Below are positions 10,606 through 43,615 of a stretch of DNA of 48,689 bases, piece after piece. The notes under the pieces are model-generated. The model searched no databases, had not been told where the DNA came from, and saw only the letters and a list, made by a program, of their open reading frames with translations. Every line of letters starts with the position of its first letter. The first letter of the stretch is position 1. Source of the DNA: Candidatus Cloacimonas sp. (GTDB lineage Bacteria > Cloacimonadota > Cloacimonadia > Cloacimonadales > Cloacimonadaceae); NCBI GenBank assembly GCA_039680785.1, contig JBDKSF010000122.1:1-48689 (forward strand), read 5' to 3'. Made by a program: the position numbers and the translations under genes.

Positions 10606-10681
10606 TGGTGGAGCTAAGGGGATTCGAACCCCTGGCCTAATGATTGCGAACCATTCGCTCTACCAACTGAGCTATAGCCCC
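10606..10681 (-). tRNA. tRNA-Ala (anticodon CGC)
   Basis: The 76-nt minus-strand sequence folds as a complete cloverleaf. It has a 7-bp acceptor stem GGGGCTA/TAGCTCC with the G3-U70 alanine identity pair, D-arm GCTCAGTTGGTAGAGC, anticodon loop TTCGCAA (CGC, reading GCG), and T-loop TTCGAAT. The 3' CCA is encoded. A run of eight T residues follows closely on the minus strand and may terminate transcription. Confidence 0.95.
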
Positions 10682-24315: not shown

Positions 24316-27315
24316 ATGAAGCACTTTGCTCTGCTTTTATGTTTGCTACTGACAATTTCTCTTTTTGCTTATGATTTGAATGACAGAGAAGGAACCGCGG
24401 TTTTTAAAATTAAGCCAGAAATGCGTTCCGCTCTGCAAAAAACCCATAATCGCACTGGTATTGCCACAATTGATGAGAAACTGCAGAAATTACAGGTCTC
24501 ATCCATCCACCCTAAATTTAATCTATCTTCTCAAAAGAGAAATAATTGTGAGCTGGAACTGATTTTTACGGTGCAAAGTTCCTACCCTCCTCAGACAATT
24601 GTAAACTTGCTTGCTACAGACAATTATGTGCAATATGCGGAAATTGTTTATCCTGATAGCGTTTTTGCCATTCCCAATGATGAACATTATGCAGAGTCAC
24701 TCTATTTTTCTTCTCTGGAAGCAGAGACCGCTTGGGATATTCATAAAGGCGAAAATGGCTCAAATTCTGTGCTGCTTGCCATTGTAGATACCGGCTGCCG
24801 ATGGACTCATCCAGACCTGGCAGAAAATATTTGGCAAAATTTAGGCGAAGATGTAAACGACAATGGATACACAATTTATTATAACGGAAGCACTTGGGTT
24901 ATGGATGCGGGAGACCTAAATGGAATTGATGAGGACGGAAATGGGAAAATTGATGACCTGATTGGCTGGGATTTTATGCTTACCAGTTCTGGCGATGAGG
25001 CAAATAATCCCTTTGAAAACAGCGGACATGGAACTACGGTTTGTGGAATTGCTTCTGCCAGAACAAATAACACAATTGGGGTTAATTCCCTTGCCTGGAA
25101 TTTAAAAATGCTGCCCATATCCTGTAGTTTCCCAGGTTCCAGCTCTATATATAAAGGTTACGATGGCATTATTTATGCTGCAGAAATGGGAGCCGATATC
25201 ATAAATTGCAGTTGGGGTGGCTCCTCTTTTTCTTTCTCAAATCAGGAAGCCATCAATTATGCCTATTCTTTGGGCTCAACTATTGTTGCCTCTGCTGGAA
25301 ACAATAATAACGCTATCCCCGTCTATCCTGCTGCCTATCAAAATGTTATAGCTGTTGCCGCTTTGCAAAATAATGGGGTAAAATCTTCCGTTTCCAGTTA
25401 TGGTTCTTTTGTTGATGTGGGCGCTCCTACAGGTTCAGTGGGAACAGTGACTGCCAGTGGATATACAACTGTAAGTAATGCAACATCTTATGCCAGTCCG
25501 GTGGCAAGTTCTTTGGCAGGATTAATCCAATCCTATCTTCCGGAAATAAGTCAAACGGAACTGAGAGATAGAATTAAAGGTAGCTGCGATGATGTGGATG
25601 CTGTAAATCCTGGTAGAGAAAATCTTTTGGGGGAAGGAAAACTTAATGCCCGCCGTGCTCTGCAGGAAAGCAACCCTCTTCCTGATGCTGAAATTCGGCT
25701 TGCTTTAATAGAAAATAGAGGAGCAACCGATGCTAATGGAAATTTAGCGGTTGAGCCAGACGAGACATTTTCGGTCAATTTGCTGTTAAGAAGCTACGGA
25801 GAATATGCTTCCAATGGTAATTTTACGCTTTCCACAGGCAATGCTAATGTTAATATCCTCTCCGGAAGCCACAGTCAAAATATTCCTGCTGATGGTTATC
25901 TTCTTCTGGAAAATGTATTTAGCATTTATGTTTTGCCAAGTGCTACTTCTCAATATGTTACTTTTACTTTGAATACAACTGGCGATTATCCTGTGGTTGC
26001 CGGAGCTAATTTGTCCTTTAGCATTTTAATCAATGCGGGAGGAATATTTGTGTGGGAAGGAGTTGCCGGAGGAAGAGATATGAGCGGGACCTTTATTAAA
26101 AACACTTTGCAGGATTTAGGTTATGACTGCGTTTACGGAACTACTTTCCCCAGTTCGTTTTACAGTTTTGAAGCGGTCTTTTTAAGTTTTGGAGCAGTGG
26201 GCAGTAACATTGTTCGTTTTGATAACCTACTTATGTTCAATGCGTTGTCCAGTTATTTAATTTCTGGCGGAAAAGTATATATTGAAGGCGTGGATGTGGT
26301 CGGATTCGATTTTGGATACTATCTTCCGGATGTTCAAGGCGAGCAAGATGCGGATGAAGTTCTTTGGCCCCTCTTGGGAATAGTGAATGCTGAAGATGGA
26401 CAAACCAATGCTATAAATAATCTTAGTGGCGTTGCTAATACCCCAACTTCTGGAATGATTTTTACTGGCTCCACACAAACTATGGTGGATTATATAGACC
26501 GTTTTACGGCTGTTTATCCTTATGCCAGAAGTGCTTTTGAGGAAAGTGATTACGGATGTGTGGCTGTTGCCAGCGCCGGTGGCTATAATGAACGCAGCTT
26601 TGTATTTAGCTATGCTTTAAGTGAATTAACGGATGGAACTTATCCCAATACGAGAGCAAACCTCTTGGAATGCATTATGGATTTCTTTACGGCAGAAGAA
26701 GTTACCCTGCCTGTAGAACTTACTGCTTTCTATGCTGTCTTTGTTAGTGGTGCCAATATTTTTTGGAATACGGCTTCTGAAACTAATCTCGCGGGCTATA
26801 ATCTCTACAGAAACGATAAACCAGAATTTGCTTCTGCCCTAAAATTGAATGCTTCCATAATTTCTGCAGTAGGCGGTGCAAGTGGTTATCAATATAGCTT
26901 TTATGATTCTGAATTGCCCTTTGCCGATACACTTTACTATTGGCTGGAAACAATTGCCTATAATGGAATTAACGATGTTTTGGGTCCGATAGTTCTTATT
27001 TTACCTGATCCTGAACCAGAAAATCCTCCTCTGCCTCCTGAAAAAATTGAATATTTGCATAGCTATCCCAATCCCTTCAGTTCGTCTGTGGCATTGGAAT
27101 TAAAACTTAGTTCTGCCTCTGAAGCTAAAATATACATCTATAACATTAAAGGACAGCTAATTAGGAAAATGGACACTATTCCTTTGGAAACAGGCCAACA
27201 ACATTTTACCTGGGATGGCTTGGATAATAAAAAAGGTGCTGTTCCTTCCGGTATTTACCTAATGATTGTTAAAAGCGAGCAAAGAACAATCATCCACAAG
27301 CTTCTGAAAATGTAA
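24316..27315 (+). CDS. Secreted subtilisin-like serine protease with C-terminal FlgD-like domain
   Basis: A signal peptide (MKHFALLLCLLLTISLFA) is followed by a pro-region (about 20-120). The peptidase S8 domain (about 130-405) has catalytic D158 (AIVDTGCRWTHPD), H238 (SGHGT), oxyanion N329 (ASAGNN) and S391 (TSYASPVASSLAG). Next come beta-rich regions and, at about 810-900, an FN3-like segment. The last 80 residues (YPNPFSSSVALEL, IYIYNIKGQLIRK, WDGLDNKKGAVPSGIYLM) are the FlgD-like/type IX-style C-terminal domain common in FCB bacteria, suggesting surface export. An acidic calcium-binding-like loop (DLNGIDEDGNGKIDD) lies at 200-214. The 999-residue reading frame is intact. Confidence 0.93.
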   Translation: MKHFALLLCLLLTISLFAYDLNDREGTAVFKIKPEMRSALQKTHNRTGIATIDEKLQKLQVSSIHPKFNLSSQKRNNCELELIFTVQSSYPPQTIVNLLATDNYVQYAEIVYPDSVFAIPNDEHYAESLYFSSLEAETAWDIHKGENGSNSVLLAIVDTGCRWTHPDLAENIWQNLGEDVNDNGYTIYYNGSTWVMDAGDLNGIDEDGNGKIDDLIGWDFMLTSSGDEANNPFENSGHGTTVCGIASARTNNTIGVNSLAWNLKMLPISCSFPGSSSIYKGYDGIIYAAEMGADIINCSWGGSSFSFSNQEAINYAYSLGSTIVASAGNNNNAIPVYPAAYQNVIAVAALQNNGVKSSVSSYGSFVDVGAPTGSVGTVTASGYTTVSNATSYASPVASSLAGLIQSYLPEISQTELRDRIKGSCDDVDAVNPGRENLLGEGKLNARRALQESNPLPDAEIRLALIENRGATDANGNLAVEPDETFSVNLLLRSYGEYASNGNFTLSTGNANVNILSGSHSQNIPADGYLLLENVFSIYVLPSATSQYVTFTLNTTGDYPVVAGANLSFSILINAGGIFVWEGVAGGRDMSGTFIKNTLQDLGYDCVYGTTFPSSFYSFEAVFLSFGAVGSNIVRFDNLLMFNALSSYLISGGKVYIEGVDVVGFDFGYYLPDVQGEQDADEVLWPLLGIVNAEDGQTNAINNLSGVANTPTSGMIFTGSTQTMVDYIDRFTAVYPYARSAFEESDYGCVAVASAGGYNERSFVFSYALSELTDGTYPNTRANLLECIMDFFTAEEVTLPVELTAFYAVFVSGANIFWNTASETNLAGYNLYRNDKPEFASALKLNASIISAVGGASGYQYSFYDSELPFADTLYYWLETIAYNGINDVLGPIVLILPDPEPENPPLPPEKIEYLHSYPNPFSSSVALELKLSSASEAKIYIYNIKGQLIRKMDTIPLETGQQHFTWDGLDNKKGAVPSGIYLMIVKSEQRTIIHKLLKM

Positions 27316-27324
27316 CTGGAGGGG

Positions 27325-27570
27325 GGGTGTGTAGCCGGAGCTCGCTGAAGCTCCGCAAAAAAAGTGTAAAGGGGTCGCGGGGTCTTGGGGTCGAGGGGTC
27401 GAGAGGTCTTGGGGTCGAGAGGGGGGTGTGTAGCCGGAGCTCGCTGAAGCTCCGCAAAAAAGTGTAAAAGTGGAAAGGGGTCGAGAGGTCTTGAGGTCGA
27501 GGGGTCTTGGGGTCTTGAGCTGAAACCCGGTGTGTAGCCGGAGCTCGCTGAAGCTCCGCAAGAAAGTGGA
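27325..27570. repeat. Three copies of a TGTGTAGCCGGAGCTC hairpin repeat with G-rich spacers
   Basis: Near-identical units begin at about 27326, 27426 and 27531. Each has the stem CGGAGCT-CGCTGA-AGCTCCG followed by an A-rich stretch. The spacers are made of GGGGTCGA and GGTCTTGG octamers. These units directly follow the protease stop. No T tract follows the hairpins on the plus strand. Confidence 0.8.
27371..27398 (+). other. G-quadruplex-forming motif
   Basis: Four GGGG runs (27371-27374, 27379-27382, 27387-27390, 27395-27398) are separated by 4-nt loops TCGC, TCTT and TCGA. This fits a canonical intramolecular quadruplex. Further G runs continue to 27427 and, in a second cluster, 27477-27514. 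Confidence 0.6.
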
Positions 27571-27757
27571 AAAGTGTAAAAGTGGAAAGGTGAAACAAAG
27601 GATACATTTTTGTTGCAACCTGATAGATAGAAACCACCAGAACCGAAATAAATTATATCCTTGCTTTAATTCCTTTGCTGGCTCATTTTTCCCAATGGTG
27701 GCGTCCTTCTTGTAAGGGAAAATTACATTCAGCATCCATTTATTTATTCTCTTGTTC
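27571..27757. other. Short gap between repeat blocks
   Basis: I see no gene, RNA or repeat here. Minus-strand open frames across it arise from the neighbouring repeats. Confidence 0.4.
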
Positions 27758-27760
27758 AAA

Positions 27761-28465
27761 AAGCCCCTGAGGGCGACATAATCATAGCGATGGTGGCGTA
27801 AGCCCCTCGTAAAAAGATAGATACGATCGTTATCTCTTGTTATTTTGCTACCTGAAAAAGCCCCTGAGGGCGACATAATCATAGCGATGGTGGCGTAAGC
27901 CCCTCGTAAAATGAATGATACAATCGTTATCTGTTTTTATTTCGCTACCTGAAAAAGCCCCTGAGGGCGACATAATCATAGCGATGGTCGTGTAAATAAT
28001 CTGTCGGTTTTAAGCAGTTGGCTGTTGGCTGTCGGCTTTAAGTCAAAATCGGCCTATTCTATGAGATTATTAATGACCTTATTAAAAGATAGGAAAAAGA
28101 ATGAAACTGGATGGAAGATCACAAGAAAACCGATTTTAACTCAAAGACCGCTACAATCATAGCGAGGGTGGAGTAATCCCCTCGTAAAATGAATGATACA
28201 ATCGTTATCAGTTTTTATTTTGCTACCTGAGAAAGCCCCTGAGAGCGACACAATCATAGCGATGGTCGTGTAAATAATCTGTCGGTTTTAAGCAGTTGGC
28301 TGTTGGCTGTCGTCTTTAAGTCAAAATCGGCCTATTCTATGAGATTATTAATGACCTTATTCAAAGATAGTAAAAAAGAATGAAACTGGATGGAAGATCA
28401 CAAGAAAACCGATTTTAACTCAAAGGCCGACACAATGATAGCGATGGTGGCGTAAGCCCCTCGGG
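27761..28465. repeat. Tandem array of GCCCCTGAGGGCGAC / TCATAGCGATGG repeats
   Basis: Units containing GCCC-CTGA-GGGC, a TCATAGCGATGG core and GTAAGCCCCTCG start near 27761, 27856 and 27952 (period about 96 nt). More diverged copies lie at about 28141, 28233 and 28422. The sequence between units is also conserved, so these are not CRISPR repeats. A higher-order duplication of about 278 nt repeats the stretch after 27991 at 28269. The same family recurs at 39427-39640. Confidence 0.8.
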
Positions 28466-28490
28466 GAAAAACACATAACGAAAAAAGACA

Positions 28491-28735
28491 GTCCCAGCGG
28501 AACGACAGATATTAACAACGGATTTTAATCCAGTGCAATGAAGGACAGGGGAAAAAGTCCCAGCGGGACGACAGATTGAAGCGACGGGTTTTAACCCGGT
28601 GCAATGAAGGATAGGGGGAAAAAGTCCCAGCGGAACGACAGATATTAACAACGGGTATTAACCCGGTGCAAAGATGGACAGGGGAAAAAGTCCCAGCGGG
28701 ACGAAAGATATTAACAACGGATTTTAACCTGTTGG
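28491..28735. repeat. Four tandem 66-67 nt repeats with internal palindromes
   Basis: Copies begin at 28491, 28557, 28624 and 28690. Each holds GTCCCAGCGGGAC or a close variant (stem GTCCC/GGGAC), ACGACAGAT, and a CGGGTTTTAACCCG-like palindrome, followed by a purine-rich tail. The whole unit is conserved with no unique spacers. Confidence 0.85.
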
Positions 28736-28760
28736 CAAAAACACAAGAAGATTGATGTTT

Positions 28761-28910
28761 TCATCAACCACTTCACTCGCTCTATTGTTTAGCGTTTACT
28801 TTAGAGTGCCAAAACTGGTGCACTTTTAAATTCCTTTGGCATCCTCATCAATTACTTCACTCGCTCTACTGTTTAGCGTTCACTTTAGAGTGCCAAAACC
28901 GTTTCACATT
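28761..28910. repeat. Two tandem 84-nt repeats
   Basis: The block TCATCAACCACTTCACTCGC with the following AGAGTGCCAAAAC occurs at 28761 and, slightly changed, at 28845. The remainder to 29016 shows no gene. Confidence 0.75.
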
Positions 28911-29016
28911 AAAATTCCGTTGAAAATCAACCACTACTTACACTTTATGTTTAGCTGCACTTTATACTTTTACATCTTTGCAACACTTTTCTTGATTCGA
29001 AAAATGGCTTTGACTA

Positions 29017-29073: not shown

Positions 29074-29511
29074 TTACTGAATGCTAATCTCTTTCTTGGG
29101 AGAGGGTTCTTTCTTTGGAATAGTGAGTTTCAGGACACCGTCTTCCATCTTGGCGGAGATTTTGGAACTCTCTACATTTTCAGGAAGAACCAGATTTCTG
29201 CGATAGCTGCCGCTATATCTTTCACAGCGATAAATGGTTCCCTTGGTTTCTTCTTTGGTTGTATCGCAATTTGCCTCGATAATCAGTTGATTGTCGTGAA
29301 TACTGATCTTTACATCGTCTTTCTTGAATCCGGGCAGATTTGCTATCACCTGAAATTCTTTATCCTGTTCTACTATATCCATAGCCATCGGGCGGAAATT
29401 ATCATCTCCTCCTTCTTCTTCGTAGAAACGATTGAAGAAATCGTCGAATAAGCTGAGCATATTGCTCATTGGTCTTAATTCATTTGTTCTGCGATAAGGT
29501 ACTATTTTCAT
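29074..29511 (-). CDS. Small heat shock protein, Hsp20/alpha-crystallin family
   Basis: Small heat shock proteins bind unfolding proteins without ATP. The 145-residue product has an N-terminal amphipathic arm (LSLFDDFFNRFYEE), an alpha-crystallin domain (about 42-135; DIVEQDKEFQVIANLPGFKKDDVKISIHDNQLIIEA split by short variable parts, then RCERYSGSYRRNLVLPE) and a terminal I-S-I tail motif for oligomer contacts. The ATG follows GGAGGTTCAAA. Its promoter carries a CIRCE operator, so HrcA control is likely, and it has its own terminator. Confidence 0.96.
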   Translation of the reverse strand: MKIVPYRRTNELRPMSNMLSLFDDFFNRFYEEEGGDDNFRPMAMDIVEQDKEFQVIANLPGFKKDDVKISIHDNQLIIEANCDTTKEETKGTIYRCERYSGSYRRNLVLPENVESSKISAKMEDGVLKLTIPKKEPSPKKEISIQ

Positions 29512-39134: not shown

Positions 39135-39385
39135 AGAATTCTCACAGATTGCACAGATTTAACAGATAATAGGTATGGGATGAATAGGATTATTTTAGCG
39201 GAGGGCTGAGAGCTTAGAAAAAAAAGATCTCTCACAGATTGCACAGATGACACAGATTAAAAAGAGAATAGGTTTGGGATGAATGGACTATTTTAGCGGA
39301 GGGCTGAGAGCAGAGAAAAAAAAGATCTCTCACAGATTGCACAGATGACACAGATTAAAAAGAGAATAGGTTTGGGATGAACAGG
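39135..39385. repeat. Three tandem CTCACAGATT-type repeats
   Basis: Units start at 39141, 39231 and 39329 (periods 90 and 98 nt). Each contains CTCACAGATTGCACAGAT, an A-rich AGAGAATAGG part and the tail TTTTAGCGGAGGGCTGAGAG. A related single copy lies at 10505-10541 in inverse orientation. Confidence 0.8.
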
Positions 39386-39426
39386 ATTGAAAAGATGTTA
39401 GAGATTTTTAAAACAATATTTACCTT

Positions 39427-39640
39427 AAAAGCCCGGAGGGCGACACAATCATAGCGATGGGTGCGTAAGCCCCTCGTAAAAATGAAAGACACAATCTTTT
39501 TCTTTTTCATTTTCGTTTACCCATAAAGCCCCCCAAGGGCGACACAATCATAGCGATGGGTGCGTAAGCCCCTCGAAAAAGAAAGACAAAAACATCATAT
39601 TCTCATTCTCATATACCCAAAAAAAGCCCCCAAAGGCAAC
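39427..39640. repeat. Second cluster of GGGCGACACAATCATAGCG repeats
   Basis: Two good units (from about 39427 and 39524) and a partial one (about 39620) belong to the family at 27761-28465: GGGCGACACAATCATAGCGA followed by GTAAGCCCCTCG. The two sites are 11 kb apart. Confidence 0.75.
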
Positions 39641-41519: not shown

Positions 41520-43615
41520 TTCCTTTATATCAAGCTATAGGGAAAATAGTATTAAAAACAGTGAATTTTAACTCGCTTCCCGAAAAAGAACAAAAACTAT
41601 TGATTGTGAAACAGTATTGTAATGAACTGAACAATTATAAATGGCCGAAAAAAGTGGTCAATAATGTGGTCAATAATGTGGACAATAATGTGGACAATAA
41701 TGTGGACAATAATGTAAAAGATGATGTTGGAAGGTTATTGGAGTTAAACCTTGATACTACTAAAAAGGTATGCTATTTTTCCCAGGGTACTCAATTAATT
41801 CCTGAAAAAAAAGATGAACTCTTGGTTTTTTCTAATTATTCTCCAAATGATCCTTCTATCTATGCTGCCCACATATCGTTAAAACCACTACTGCAATTTG
41901 AACTATATAATTATGTAGAAAACAACTTCAAAAAAATACCGTGGAAAGAAGAAACTCGGGGAAAGGAGTTCTTAAACTATCTCAAAGATATACAAGAGAC
42001 ATTTTTCAGAATGGAAAATAATATTATCTCACTTAAATATGATAAGCTTAAAGAAGACCAACAAAAGGATTTTCCTGATCCTGAGAATATACCTGAACTT
42101 AAAGATAAGCTGAATGAAAAAAAGGACTACAACAAAGAATTTCAAAAATACTTAAAAAAATATCTTTCTACTACTATAAAAGATTTTGTTACAGAAAGAC
42201 AAGCTTATGCTTTAAAGATTGATGGTCAATTTTTGCATCAAACGAAGTATGCCGATTGTTATATTGATGTTTTGTATCATTACCTTTTTGACAGACATTA
42301 TTTAGATAACACAAAACAGGGCTATTGTCATATCTGTGGAAATGAATCTACCTTACCTAAAGACATAGCTATTAAACAGAAATTTTTTGGAACTACTAAC
42401 CCTCTTTATTTTGATAAAGTAGACGGAAATTTAACTCACAATGCTTTTTCAATGTGCGAAAATTGCAATCAGCAAGTTTTAATAGGAATTCAATATGCAT
42501 CTACAAAGTTGAGAACAACCTTACTTGGTTTGAAAACTATAGTCCTACCCGAAATTAAGTTTGAAATTGATAATGATGAAGAACTAATTGATCCTCAAAA
42601 ACTTAATATGGCTACAAAGCTTCTGGAGCGAATACCCTTAGATCAAAAAAGGGATGATATTAATACTCTTAATACACTTCTCAGAAGGTTAAAAGAATTT
42701 ACTTTGCTTTTTTATAACAAACCAAGCCCTACTTCACAAGAATTTATCATTAATGGTATGATTAAAAACATCAATCTAAAGGAATTAATCGCTAAAACTG
42801 AACACTTGAATAAAATGGTTCAGGATTATAACTTAGGTTCTTTATATGGTAAACAGGCATGTTTATCTTTTGAAGGGCTTAGATATTTAATTCTACCTTC
42901 AAAAGAATCTCATCCAGGTATGGATCAAAATGATTATACTGTATTGAATAAAAACATTATCAGTTCTTTAGGGACATACATATATAAAAGGAACTTTCAA
43001 TATTATGATCTTATCTGTAGGTTTGCTGATATTTATAATCGGAAAAACAATAATTTGAAAACCGAGAATAAGTATTTTTTAAATATAACCCCCTTTCTTA
43101 TGACCCTATATTTAGATCACTTAATAAAATTTAATCAATTAGAAGGAGTATCAATTATGGAACAGCGTAATTTAATTTCAAAGCTGCAGGATGAAAGAAT
43201 CACTGTATATTTTAACTCTCATTCCCAAATTTATGAAAACAACTTCTTTGCTCAAGGACTTTTCATATTGGGTATGTATATTGCCGCGATAGAATCCGAA
43301 CAGAGAAAAAAGAATATCAAAAGCACTTTAATTAATAGATTGAATCTGCGTGGTATTCCTGTTCAAAAAGTTAAGTCCTTGATGGCTATGGTTGATGAAA
43401 TGGGTAAGGTTTGGAATATATTTTATGATTCTATAACTGAAAATTATTACAGAGAATGTTTGCAAGGTATAGAGAACTCTTCTCTATCACCGGAAGAAAT
43501 TGTCTTTCACATTTTAAGTGGCAGGGCTTATTCAAATTATTTAGGTGCTATGTATAAATTAGAACATCCAGATAAAACTGAAAAAAATCAGGAGGAACAA
43601 AATGATCAACAATAA
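41516..43615 (+). CDS. cas8b: Type I-B large Cascade subunit Cas8b (Csh1-like)
   Basis: Cas8b is the large effector subunit that recognises the PAM and recruits Cas3. The 699-residue protein has a zinc-finger-like pair of CxxC motifs (C271/C274 in YCHICGNES and C314/C317 in MCENCNQQ), as expected for the Csh1/TM1802 group. A low-complexity V-[V/D]-N-N tract (residues 47-66) is encoded by a 12-nt tandem repeat. The gene lies between cas6 and cas7, with overlaps at both ends. Sequence divergence in this subunit is normal, so the family rests on cysteines, length and synteny. Confidence 0.88.
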   Translation: MIPLYQAIGKIVLKTVNFNSLPEKEQKLLIVKQYCNELNNYKWPKKVVNNVVNNVDNNVDNNVDNNVKDDVGRLLELNLDTTKKVCYFSQGTQLIPEKKDELLVFSNYSPNDPSIYAAHISLKPLLQFELYNYVENNFKKIPWKEETRGKEFLNYLKDIQETFFRMENNIISLKYDKLKEDQQKDFPDPENIPELKDKLNEKKDYNKEFQKYLKKYLSTTIKDFVTERQAYALKIDGQFLHQTKYADCYIDVLYHYLFDRHYLDNTKQGYCHICGNESTLPKDIAIKQKFFGTTNPLYFDKVDGNLTHNAFSMCENCNQQVLIGIQYASTKLRTTLLGLKTIVLPEIKFEIDNDEELIDPQKLNMATKLLERIPLDQKRDDINTLNTLLRRLKEFTLLFYNKPSPTSQEFIINGMIKNINLKELIAKTEHLNKMVQDYNLGSLYGKQACLSFEGLRYLILPSKESHPGMDQNDYTVLNKNIISSLGTYIYKRNFQYYDLICRFADIYNRKNNNLKTENKYFLNITPFLMTLYLDHLIKFNQLEGVSIMEQRNLISKLQDERITVYFNSHSQIYENNFFAQGLFILGMYIAAIESEQRKKNIKSTLINRLNLRGIPVQKVKSLMAMVDEMGKVWNIFYDSITENYYRECLQGIENSSLSPEEIVFHILSGRAYSNYLGAMYKLEHPDKTEKNQEEQNDQQ
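41654..41713 (+). repeat. Five 12-nt microsatellite units inside cas8b
   Basis: The unit GTGGTCAATAAT occurs twice, then GTGGACAATAAT three times, in frame, encoding VVNN and VDNN. A sixth degenerate unit (VKDD) follows. Unit-number change would lengthen or shorten the protein by four residues without a frameshift. Confidence 0.9.

Follow-up and report, generated by a model that had tools for sequence, protein, structure and literature searches.

A repeat island in a Candidatus Cloacimonas genome as a probable mosaic of REP-like transposase ends, with two-hairpin families that border Y1 transposase genes in congeners

The window analysed here is the whole of contig 122 (48,689 nucleotides, nt) of the Candidatus Cloacimonas sp. 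assembly G000 (2.07 Mb, 122 contigs), and a repeat island at 27316-28950 occupies the gap between two of its convergent genes, a subtilase and an HSP20 gene. This island is probably a mosaic of non-autonomous elements that resemble repetitive extragenic palindromes (REPs) and represent ends used by Y1 (HUH) transposases, in which the families B and C would belong to subclass 1.2 and local tandem growth came later. The reading is built on what was observed of the anatomy of the island, the order of its modules, their copies across the genome, repeats bordering transposase genes and a difference between species. With less assurance, we lean towards the wider view that the Rfam family RF01687 (Acido-Lenti-1) and the twin hairpins of the window are not primarily RNAs, and that they would be recognition ends, read as single-stranded DNA (ssDNA), of a subclass 1.2 REP system that spans at least four phyla with clade-specific hairpin pairs.

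B (97-nt) and C (66-nt) share one plan of hairpin 1, linker and hairpin 2, and both border Y1 genes in congeners. In G001, a congener genome in a single contig of 2,246,820 bases, one Y1 gene has two direct C copies upstream and an inverted partial C copy downstream, and a second has four scored direct B copies upstream and one inverted B copy downstream; in G006 an intact Y1 gene lies amid C copies of both orientations. The genes so bordered encode short HUH/Y1 transposases with the motif YxxxQxxHH. D-H-x-H, W-Q, Y, Q and H-H are invariant in 13/13 aligned proteins (142-157 amino acids), and the broken genes of G001 retain the Y motif, one of them with NHIH. Judged by motifs and size, the bordered enzymes are predicted to be TnpA_Y1 of subclass 1.2; their PDB matches include the ISHp608 TnpA, the others being presumably ISDra2 and Sulfolobus TnpA. 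A covariance model of C (R2) gave matches at E<=0.001 in 50 of the 124 genomes of the phylum (G000 74, the sister species G003 58, G001 48 and G006 39, with at most 16 in the others listed), the filters of this search losing weak matches. Such model-based genome searches score part of the candidates, and copy numbers are hence lower bounds. Two further observations concern the surroundings of bordered genes. After the C-bordered Y1 gene of G001 comes a transposase-like gene (L127, ~2660-2780), which we take to be IS1182-like and whose element end seems to truncate the downstream C copy. In G033 a group II intron match (RF02001; L145:186-357) is found at a distance of about 1 kb from the Y1 gene that has B-like flanks.

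Y1 matches are found in 98 of the 124 phylum genomes. The flanks of 71 Cloacimonadota Y1 loci (30 listed, 22 further, 18 hand-picked and the window genome's own gene) were analysed together with 26 of 33 Y1 rows from other phyla; the latter come from seven genomes which were picked for the twin-hairpin pattern and are therefore not a random sample. The cut-off for a shared flank repeat was a score of 37, the 99th percentile of 400 cross-locus pairs among 68 Cloacimonadota loci (control maximum 108), and it was reused for the other phyla. Flanks share repeats at 57 of the 68 usable Cloacimonadota loci (31 inverted, 40 direct, some both). Sorted by motif, sharing is seen at 49 of 58 YxxxQxxHH genes (3 more have short flanks), at 1 of 6 YxxxQ (IS200-type) genes and at 3 of 4 with other motifs. 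Perfect-stem twin hairpins number 89 around 57 YxxxQxxHH loci versus 13.2 in dinucleotide shuffles, counts that are not independent because many hairpin pairs are alike within a locus, and they stand on both sides at 21 of these loci. The excess over shuffles is seen in Cloacimonadota (45 loci, 54 vs 5.2), Planctomycetota (7 loci, 21 vs 5.8), Bacteroidota (4 loci of one genome, 9 vs 0.8) and an Akkermansia metagenome-assembled genome (MAG; 1 locus, 5 vs 0.7). The 6 YxxxQ loci hold one such pair (0.0 in shuffles) and the 4 loci with other motifs nine (1.7). Linkers are 10-17 nt long, which is the range searched, with 12 the commonest length, and TAA or TAG stands near the linker end, before the second hairpin, in 40 of the 89 pairs (16.4 expected).

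One of the 97 proteins was dropped for length, and the tree of the other 96 places all 61 YxxxQxxHH rows inside a clade of 64 (94/92). The motif sorting is rough in that L202, L089 and L219, sorted elsewhere, fall within this clade. The C-bordered enzymes of G001 and G006 are sisters (100/100). Those with B-like flanks, which were recognised by nhmmer in G001, G007 and G013 and by eye in G033, form a weak group (90/27) nested in a clade (100/97) that adds only G024. For B and C, repeat type thus appears to track transposase clade.

Within the island, the A array holds three GC-rich hairpin units (27326-27580, spacing 99/104), the B array of 97-nt period starts at 27758 and contains a higher-order duplication of 278 nt (27877-28098 vs 28155-28376, 95%), the C array has four units of 66/67 nt (28490-28734) and the D array two of 84 nt (28761-28922). 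The original prediction had described these four tandem arrays, and all were found in their places, with a B period of 97 nt and the 278-nt duplication confirmed; the family that it had seen again 11 kb away is B, at 39426-39575. The modules and neighbouring genes are as follows.

24316-27315, plus strand: left neighbour, a subtilase-family protease with a Por secretion tail, whose stop abuts the island
27329-27362, plus strand: A copy 1, a GTAG-tagged, REP-like hairpin (copies aligned, with stem changes)
27370-27419 and again 27479-27514, plus strand: T, an 8-nt satellite (GGTCGAGA/GGTCTTGG) separating the A copies, which also adjoins A copies elsewhere in the genome
27428-27461, plus strand: A copy 2
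27532-27565, plus strand: A copy 3
27759-27809, plus strand: B copy 1, twin-hairpin (consensus fold z -1.58, weak)
27856-27906, plus strand: B copy 2
27953-27995, plus strand: B copy 3, continuing into E
28038-28151, plus strand: E copy 1, a long inverted repeat (AAGTCAAAATCGG ... CCGATTTTAACTC; fold z-score -2.28)
28149-28184, plus strand: second half of B (linker and hairpin 2) joined to E, which replaces hairpin 1, like the fusion at other islands
28233-28273, plus strand: B copy continuing into the second E (278-nt duplication)
28316-28431, plus strand: E copy 2
28425-28463, plus strand: second half of B joined to E copy 2
28489-28533, plus strand: C2 copy 1, twin-hairpin
28553-28600, plus strand: C2 copy 2, with a weak full-length RF01687 match on the minus strand (20.5 bits, E 0.11, gathering cut-off 37)
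28621-28667, plus strand: C2 copy 3
28687-28731, plus strand: C2 copy 4, with a weak full-length RF01687 match (20.7 bits, E 0.1)
28762-28843, plus strand: D copy 1, a local sequence in tandem duplicate, of which the sister species has one incomplete copy at this site
28846-28923, plus strand: D copy 2
29074-29511, minus strand: right neighbour, convergent, an HSP20 small heat-shock protein
39426-39476, plus strand: B copy 1 of the second island of the window
39523-39575, plus strand: B copy 2 of the second island

The second B pair is adjoined by an array of another module, H (CACAGATTGCACAGAT ...), with a 98-nt period at 39143-39386, and a 12-nt tandem repeat (GTGGACAATAAT, about 5 copies) lies at 41654-41727. 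H and a module I (AACAAGGATTTAGGATT) together have 32 copies in the searched stretches of G000.

The typed consensus sequences of C fold into the two hairpins (z -2.37 and -2.84), and a GTAG/GTGG foot is seen neither in the C consensus (32 copies) nor in that of B (22 copies). Chimeras were seen that join hairpin 1 of C2 to hairpin 2 of B, or E to the linker of B, which suggests that parts of B, C and E are interchangeable; E can be regarded as a third module, a long inverted repeat, for which the linker is the point of recombination with B and C. In its own genome the island has at least 96 matches at E<=0.001, a lower bound since 40 of 98 first-look candidates were scored. The clustering was computed for 95 match rows, which fall in 40 clusters (gap <=1 kb); 1000 random placements gave 90.1 clusters on average and never fewer than 82, and a cluster count so far below random, with this number of matches, excludes chance. 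In 226 kb of G000, a sample that includes the window and was selected around matches, there are 44 islands with 313 module copies in all, and 37 of these islands combine at least two families. Neighbouring modules are on the same strand in 258 of 269 pairs (134.7 on average with random orientation), and the order is directional: C1 precedes C2 in 33 cases and follows it in 4, with corresponding counts of 25 and 0 for C2 before F, 18 and 1 for B before C1 and 17 and 6 for E before B, four counts reached by none of 1000 label shuffles. This order may come from insertion beside resident elements or from the copying of composite blocks. The piling up of repeats at one site, on which the original prediction had remarked, is accordingly real and recurs in 39 other clusters, and the genome-wide clustering that it proposed to check is borne out by the comparison with random placements. 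Its description of the families as unrelated does not hold for all of them, since B and C share the two-hairpin plan and form chimeras, and the modules are ordered and mostly in one orientation.

The 84-nt D unit stands apart in having no listed genomic match outside its site, and together with its single copy in the sister species this points to local tandem duplication; D as a mobile repeat was rejected on the same two grounds, the lack of a dispersed match and the single copy at the orthologous site. As regards E, class 2 genes that resemble REP-associated tyrosine transposases (RAYTs), L117 in G001, L110 in G003 and L123 in G004, are flanked by TTTTAACTC/GAGTCAAAA, motifs also present in the arms of E, and offer a lead to its enzyme. 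The same genes (YIHANP/YIHGNP) have flanking TTTTAACTCTAAACCGA and GAGTCAAAA that resemble the E arms, and L123 has a related flanking pair, TTTAACTC...AAGTCAAA. A further module, F (for example L038:8016-8540), spans about 117 nt, has long inverted ends and folds with a z-score of -4.64; it is among the commonest with 53 copies and was not found in the window.

The A family is REP-like in the usual sense. GTAG is invariant in 15/15 aligned A/A2 copies, the consensus folds into one hairpin (z -2.12), 94.3% of the stem cells are paired and 3 of 7 pairs show changes on both sides, mostly reflecting one A/A2 split. The covariation score was reached by 0 of 500 shuffles and the number of changed pairs by 130 of 500. 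The sole Y1 match detected in G000 is a class 2, RAYT-like gene (C77, YILMNP), and it has hairpin pairs with GTAC feet on both sides, not GTAG copies. An 18-nt palindrome (GGCGGACGCCGTTCCGCC) is common to one A2 copy and the repeats flanking this gene. The A elements are GTAG REPs and probably sisters of, or akin to, the repeats of this surviving RAYT-like gene.

The history of the site can be followed across species. In the sister species G003 the orthologous genes are 93% (subtilase) and 92% (HSP20) identical, and the stop-to-stop gap measures 783 nt compared with 1758 nt in the window. It contains T, A, C1, C2/B, E, B and D in a similar order, T twice and the other modules once, some of them partial, so that the window has the larger number of A, B, E, C2 and D copies. 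In G002 and G006 the two genes are likewise neighbours, separated by about 55 and 67 nt, and these gaps hold a terminator-like hairpin and no such repeats. The island therefore predates the split of the sister species or was lost in the cousins. A 759-nt island elsewhere (C68) is missing in G003, where its flanks abut beside a short H/I-like stretch; this is the sole clean empty site, it lacks a whole island, and a single element in an empty site was not found. In G003 and G001 the two sequences that flank the window's second island are found apart from each other. For the island at L038:7793-8551 the flanks map to distant places in G001 (727.5 kb and 2058 kb), which puts it at a breakpoint of rearrangement between species. 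The original suggestion of a hot spot is upheld in that the gap differs strongly between species and a 759-nt island is absent in the sister, and is not supported as regards unrelated insertions, since we read the island as a mosaic of REP-like ends with local tandem amplification. The accompanying remark that no transposase is linked to the repeats is not supported beyond the window, where the GTAG hairpins would go with a RAYT-like gene of the genome and B and C with the subclass 1.2 genes of congeners.

The link to RF01687 emerged on a larger scale. A pattern scan across 84,980 species, each represented by a single genome, picked out 22 stretches, which belong to Cloacimonadota, Planctomycetota, Bacteroidota and an Akkermansia MAG, and RF01687 was matched at gathering level in 9 of 10 pattern loci. 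Among 20 loci, 26 of the 27 gathering-level Rfam matches are RF01687 and the remaining one is Gut-1. In Planctomycetota, RF01687 elements (53.2-63.5 bits) stand on both sides of the Y1 gene in L200 and L206 and before the gene in L201. Counting printed rows only, nine elements lie within 400 nt of 3 of the 33 Y1 rows, with 0.51 expected. The seven pattern-chosen genomes have 84, 8, 28, 17, 46, 146 and 1 matches, and 14 control genomes have none. C elements align to the full RF01687 model with 34.6 bits in G006, 30.5 in G001 and 20.7 in the window; they follow the plan of RF01687 and are not members by the curated cut-off. At gathering level the whole window has a single Rfam match, a tRNA at 10609-10681. 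RF01687 is filed as a small RNA (sRNA), Weinberg 2010 scores it 'y', probably RNA (PMC2864571), and a 2026 paper still names it as a little-known non-coding RNA (PMC13298647). Among the open-licence papers listed in searches on RF01687, subclass 1.2 and TnpAY1/REP, none ties RF01687 or subclass 1.2, by its title or the opening of its abstract, to repeats at transposase genes. Two loci of the Akkermansia MAG (L182:5790-5990, L189:6180-6461) have Gut-1 (RF01706) at a distance of about 55 and 165 nt from a twin-hairpin element, and Gut-1 may itself belong to this kind of repeat.

By analogy with IS608-type TnpA, which is among the closest solved sequences, one may propose that the transposase binds the element hairpin as ssDNA, probably on the lagging-strand template, and would cut at a constant distance from it, possibly at the linker end with TAA/TAG just before hairpin 2, so that copies would be pasted between genes. 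The subclass 1.2 transposase has apparently been lost from the window genome, whose B and C copies would now be fossils that change by recombination and slippage.

A number of observations weigh against this interpretation. Both Y1 genes of G001 are interrupted by an in-frame stop, and G000 and G003, the genomes richest in C, have no subclass 1.2 match: a profile of the 13 proteins found none at E<=1 in G000, G003 and G005, and 2-5 in each of five other congeners. Present activity is therefore doubtful, and the B and C copies in G000 and G003 look like orphans. Shared flank repeats are also found at 20 of 26 class 2 (YxxxNP) genes, whose loci have 24 twin hairpins versus 10.0 in shuffles; 9 of the 58 YxxxQxxHH genes have no flank repeat above the cut-off, and among the 49 that share, direct scores are higher in 29 and inverted ones in 20. 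The two-hairpin fold of the B consensus (z -1.58) is equalled by 12 of 200 shuffles, and none of the scanned loci gave an Rfam match for B. RF01687 reaches gathering level in 3 of 10 Y1 loci only, and the window C copies, at 20.5/20.7 bits, lie below the cut-off of 37. An nhmmer scan within 450 nt of the 71 Y1 genes found no element of E, and it yielded a cognate enzyme neither for E nor for F. The 759-nt difference between species concerns a whole island, not a single element, and no transposition event was observed.

The arguments for transposase ends must be weighed against other origins. As the main rival, older intergenic repeats, structured RNAs or terminators, might have been targets into which Y1 genes inserted, and this would agree with repeats far outnumbering transposase genes (one genome without a subclass 1.2 match has 74 matches to C) and with ISPpu9 of P. 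putida, which sits inserted in REPs according to the abstract of PMC8450116. We consider it unlikely, since repeats on both sides at 49 of 58 genes, with mirrored copies at several, and, for B and C, repeat sequences that change with the transposase clade are unexpected under random insertion. That the elements act as RNAs, either sRNAs or stabilisers and terminators at the 3' ends of convergent genes, is less probable again. The two hairpins, the sRNA label in Rfam and the site between convergent 3' ends speak for such a role; as many as 146 copies scattered over both strands of a genome, the tandem arrays, the enrichment near transposase genes and the short, repeat-free gap of the same gene pair in two cousins speak against it. 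A secondary RNA role would be compatible with the elements being transposase ends.

Pure local tandem duplication through slippage or unequal recombination, with no mobile origin, fits D, and it fits the sister species, in which most modules are single against 2-4 in the window. As the only cause of A, B, C and E it is refuted by dispersed copies, since these modules are present in about 40 clusters as well as in other species and phyla, and we give it next to no weight. An artefact of MAG assembly is credited as little. Several islands lie at contig ends, and array copy numbers from short reads are unsafe; however, a second assembly, that of G003, shows these modules at the orthologous site in a similar order, and the single-contig G001 holds such arrays. 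Only the copy number within arrays is at risk from assembly.

If the interpretation as transposase ends is true, the orphan subclass 1.2 gains a partner repeat, the orphan Rfam family RF01687 gains a function and REP biology extends past GTAG. It would also provide a rule open to testing: two hairpins joined by some 12-15 nt of linker, which often carries TAA/TAG ahead of the second hairpin, and one type per transposase clade. The mosaic structure would explain the origin of seemingly unrelated repeat islands between bacterial genes.

Among the closest known systems are REPs, their hairpin-forming doublets (REPINs) and bacterial interspersed mosaic elements (BIMEs) with RAYTs (TnpA_REP), which are likewise short intergenic palindromes in mosaic clusters with a Y1 gene flanked by its own repeats, the setting here being a pair of convergent genes; A shares their GTAG tag. 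B and C differ in having two unlike hairpins joined by a linker, in lacking a GTAG/GTGG foot in the consensus, and in going with class 1 (IS200-like, YxxxQxxHH) and not class 2 (YxxxNP) enzymes. Subclass 1.2 is characterised, in Quentin et al. 2018 (PMC6006769), by Y---Q--HH, DH[IV]H, WQ and about 148 amino acids; it is described there as generally without typical terminal structures, with REP given as 'no', and as occurring mostly in Cyanobacteria and Bacteroidetes. The enzymes found here agree in size (about 150 amino acids), in DH[IV]H, WQ and YxxxQxxHH and in their few copies per genome, whereas their genes are mostly bordered by repeats and come from Cloacimonadota, Planctomycetota, Bacteroidota and an Akkermansia MAG. 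IS200/IS605 (subclass 1.1) has a related HUH/Y1 enzyme and small subterminal hairpins at its ends, according to the same source, but consists of true insertion sequence copies, while arrays of paired hairpins, mirrored copies at several genes and few gene copies are seen here. In the TIRYTs/TIRtrons and the CGTC REPs (Di Nocera et al. 2013, PMC3733652), non-GTAG repeats also flank Y1 genes and may be dispersed, as dimers or in clusters; 20 of 26 TIRYTs are listed under subclass 2.1 (PMC6006769). CGTC REPs have no known enzyme, and C2 shows CGTC on one strand; its GTC lies inside the stem, so that CGTC is not an unpaired tag, and C1 has CGTT, for which reasons C2 as a CGTC REP was rejected. RF01687, finally, resembles C on the opposite strand in its 8-bp stem with a 4-nt loop, 12-nt linker and 5-bp stem with a 3-nt loop, and in aligning to it over the full length; it differs in that C scores 20-35 bits, below 37. 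Where Rfam speaks of an sRNA, RF01687 is seen here as a dispersed repeat near some transposase genes.

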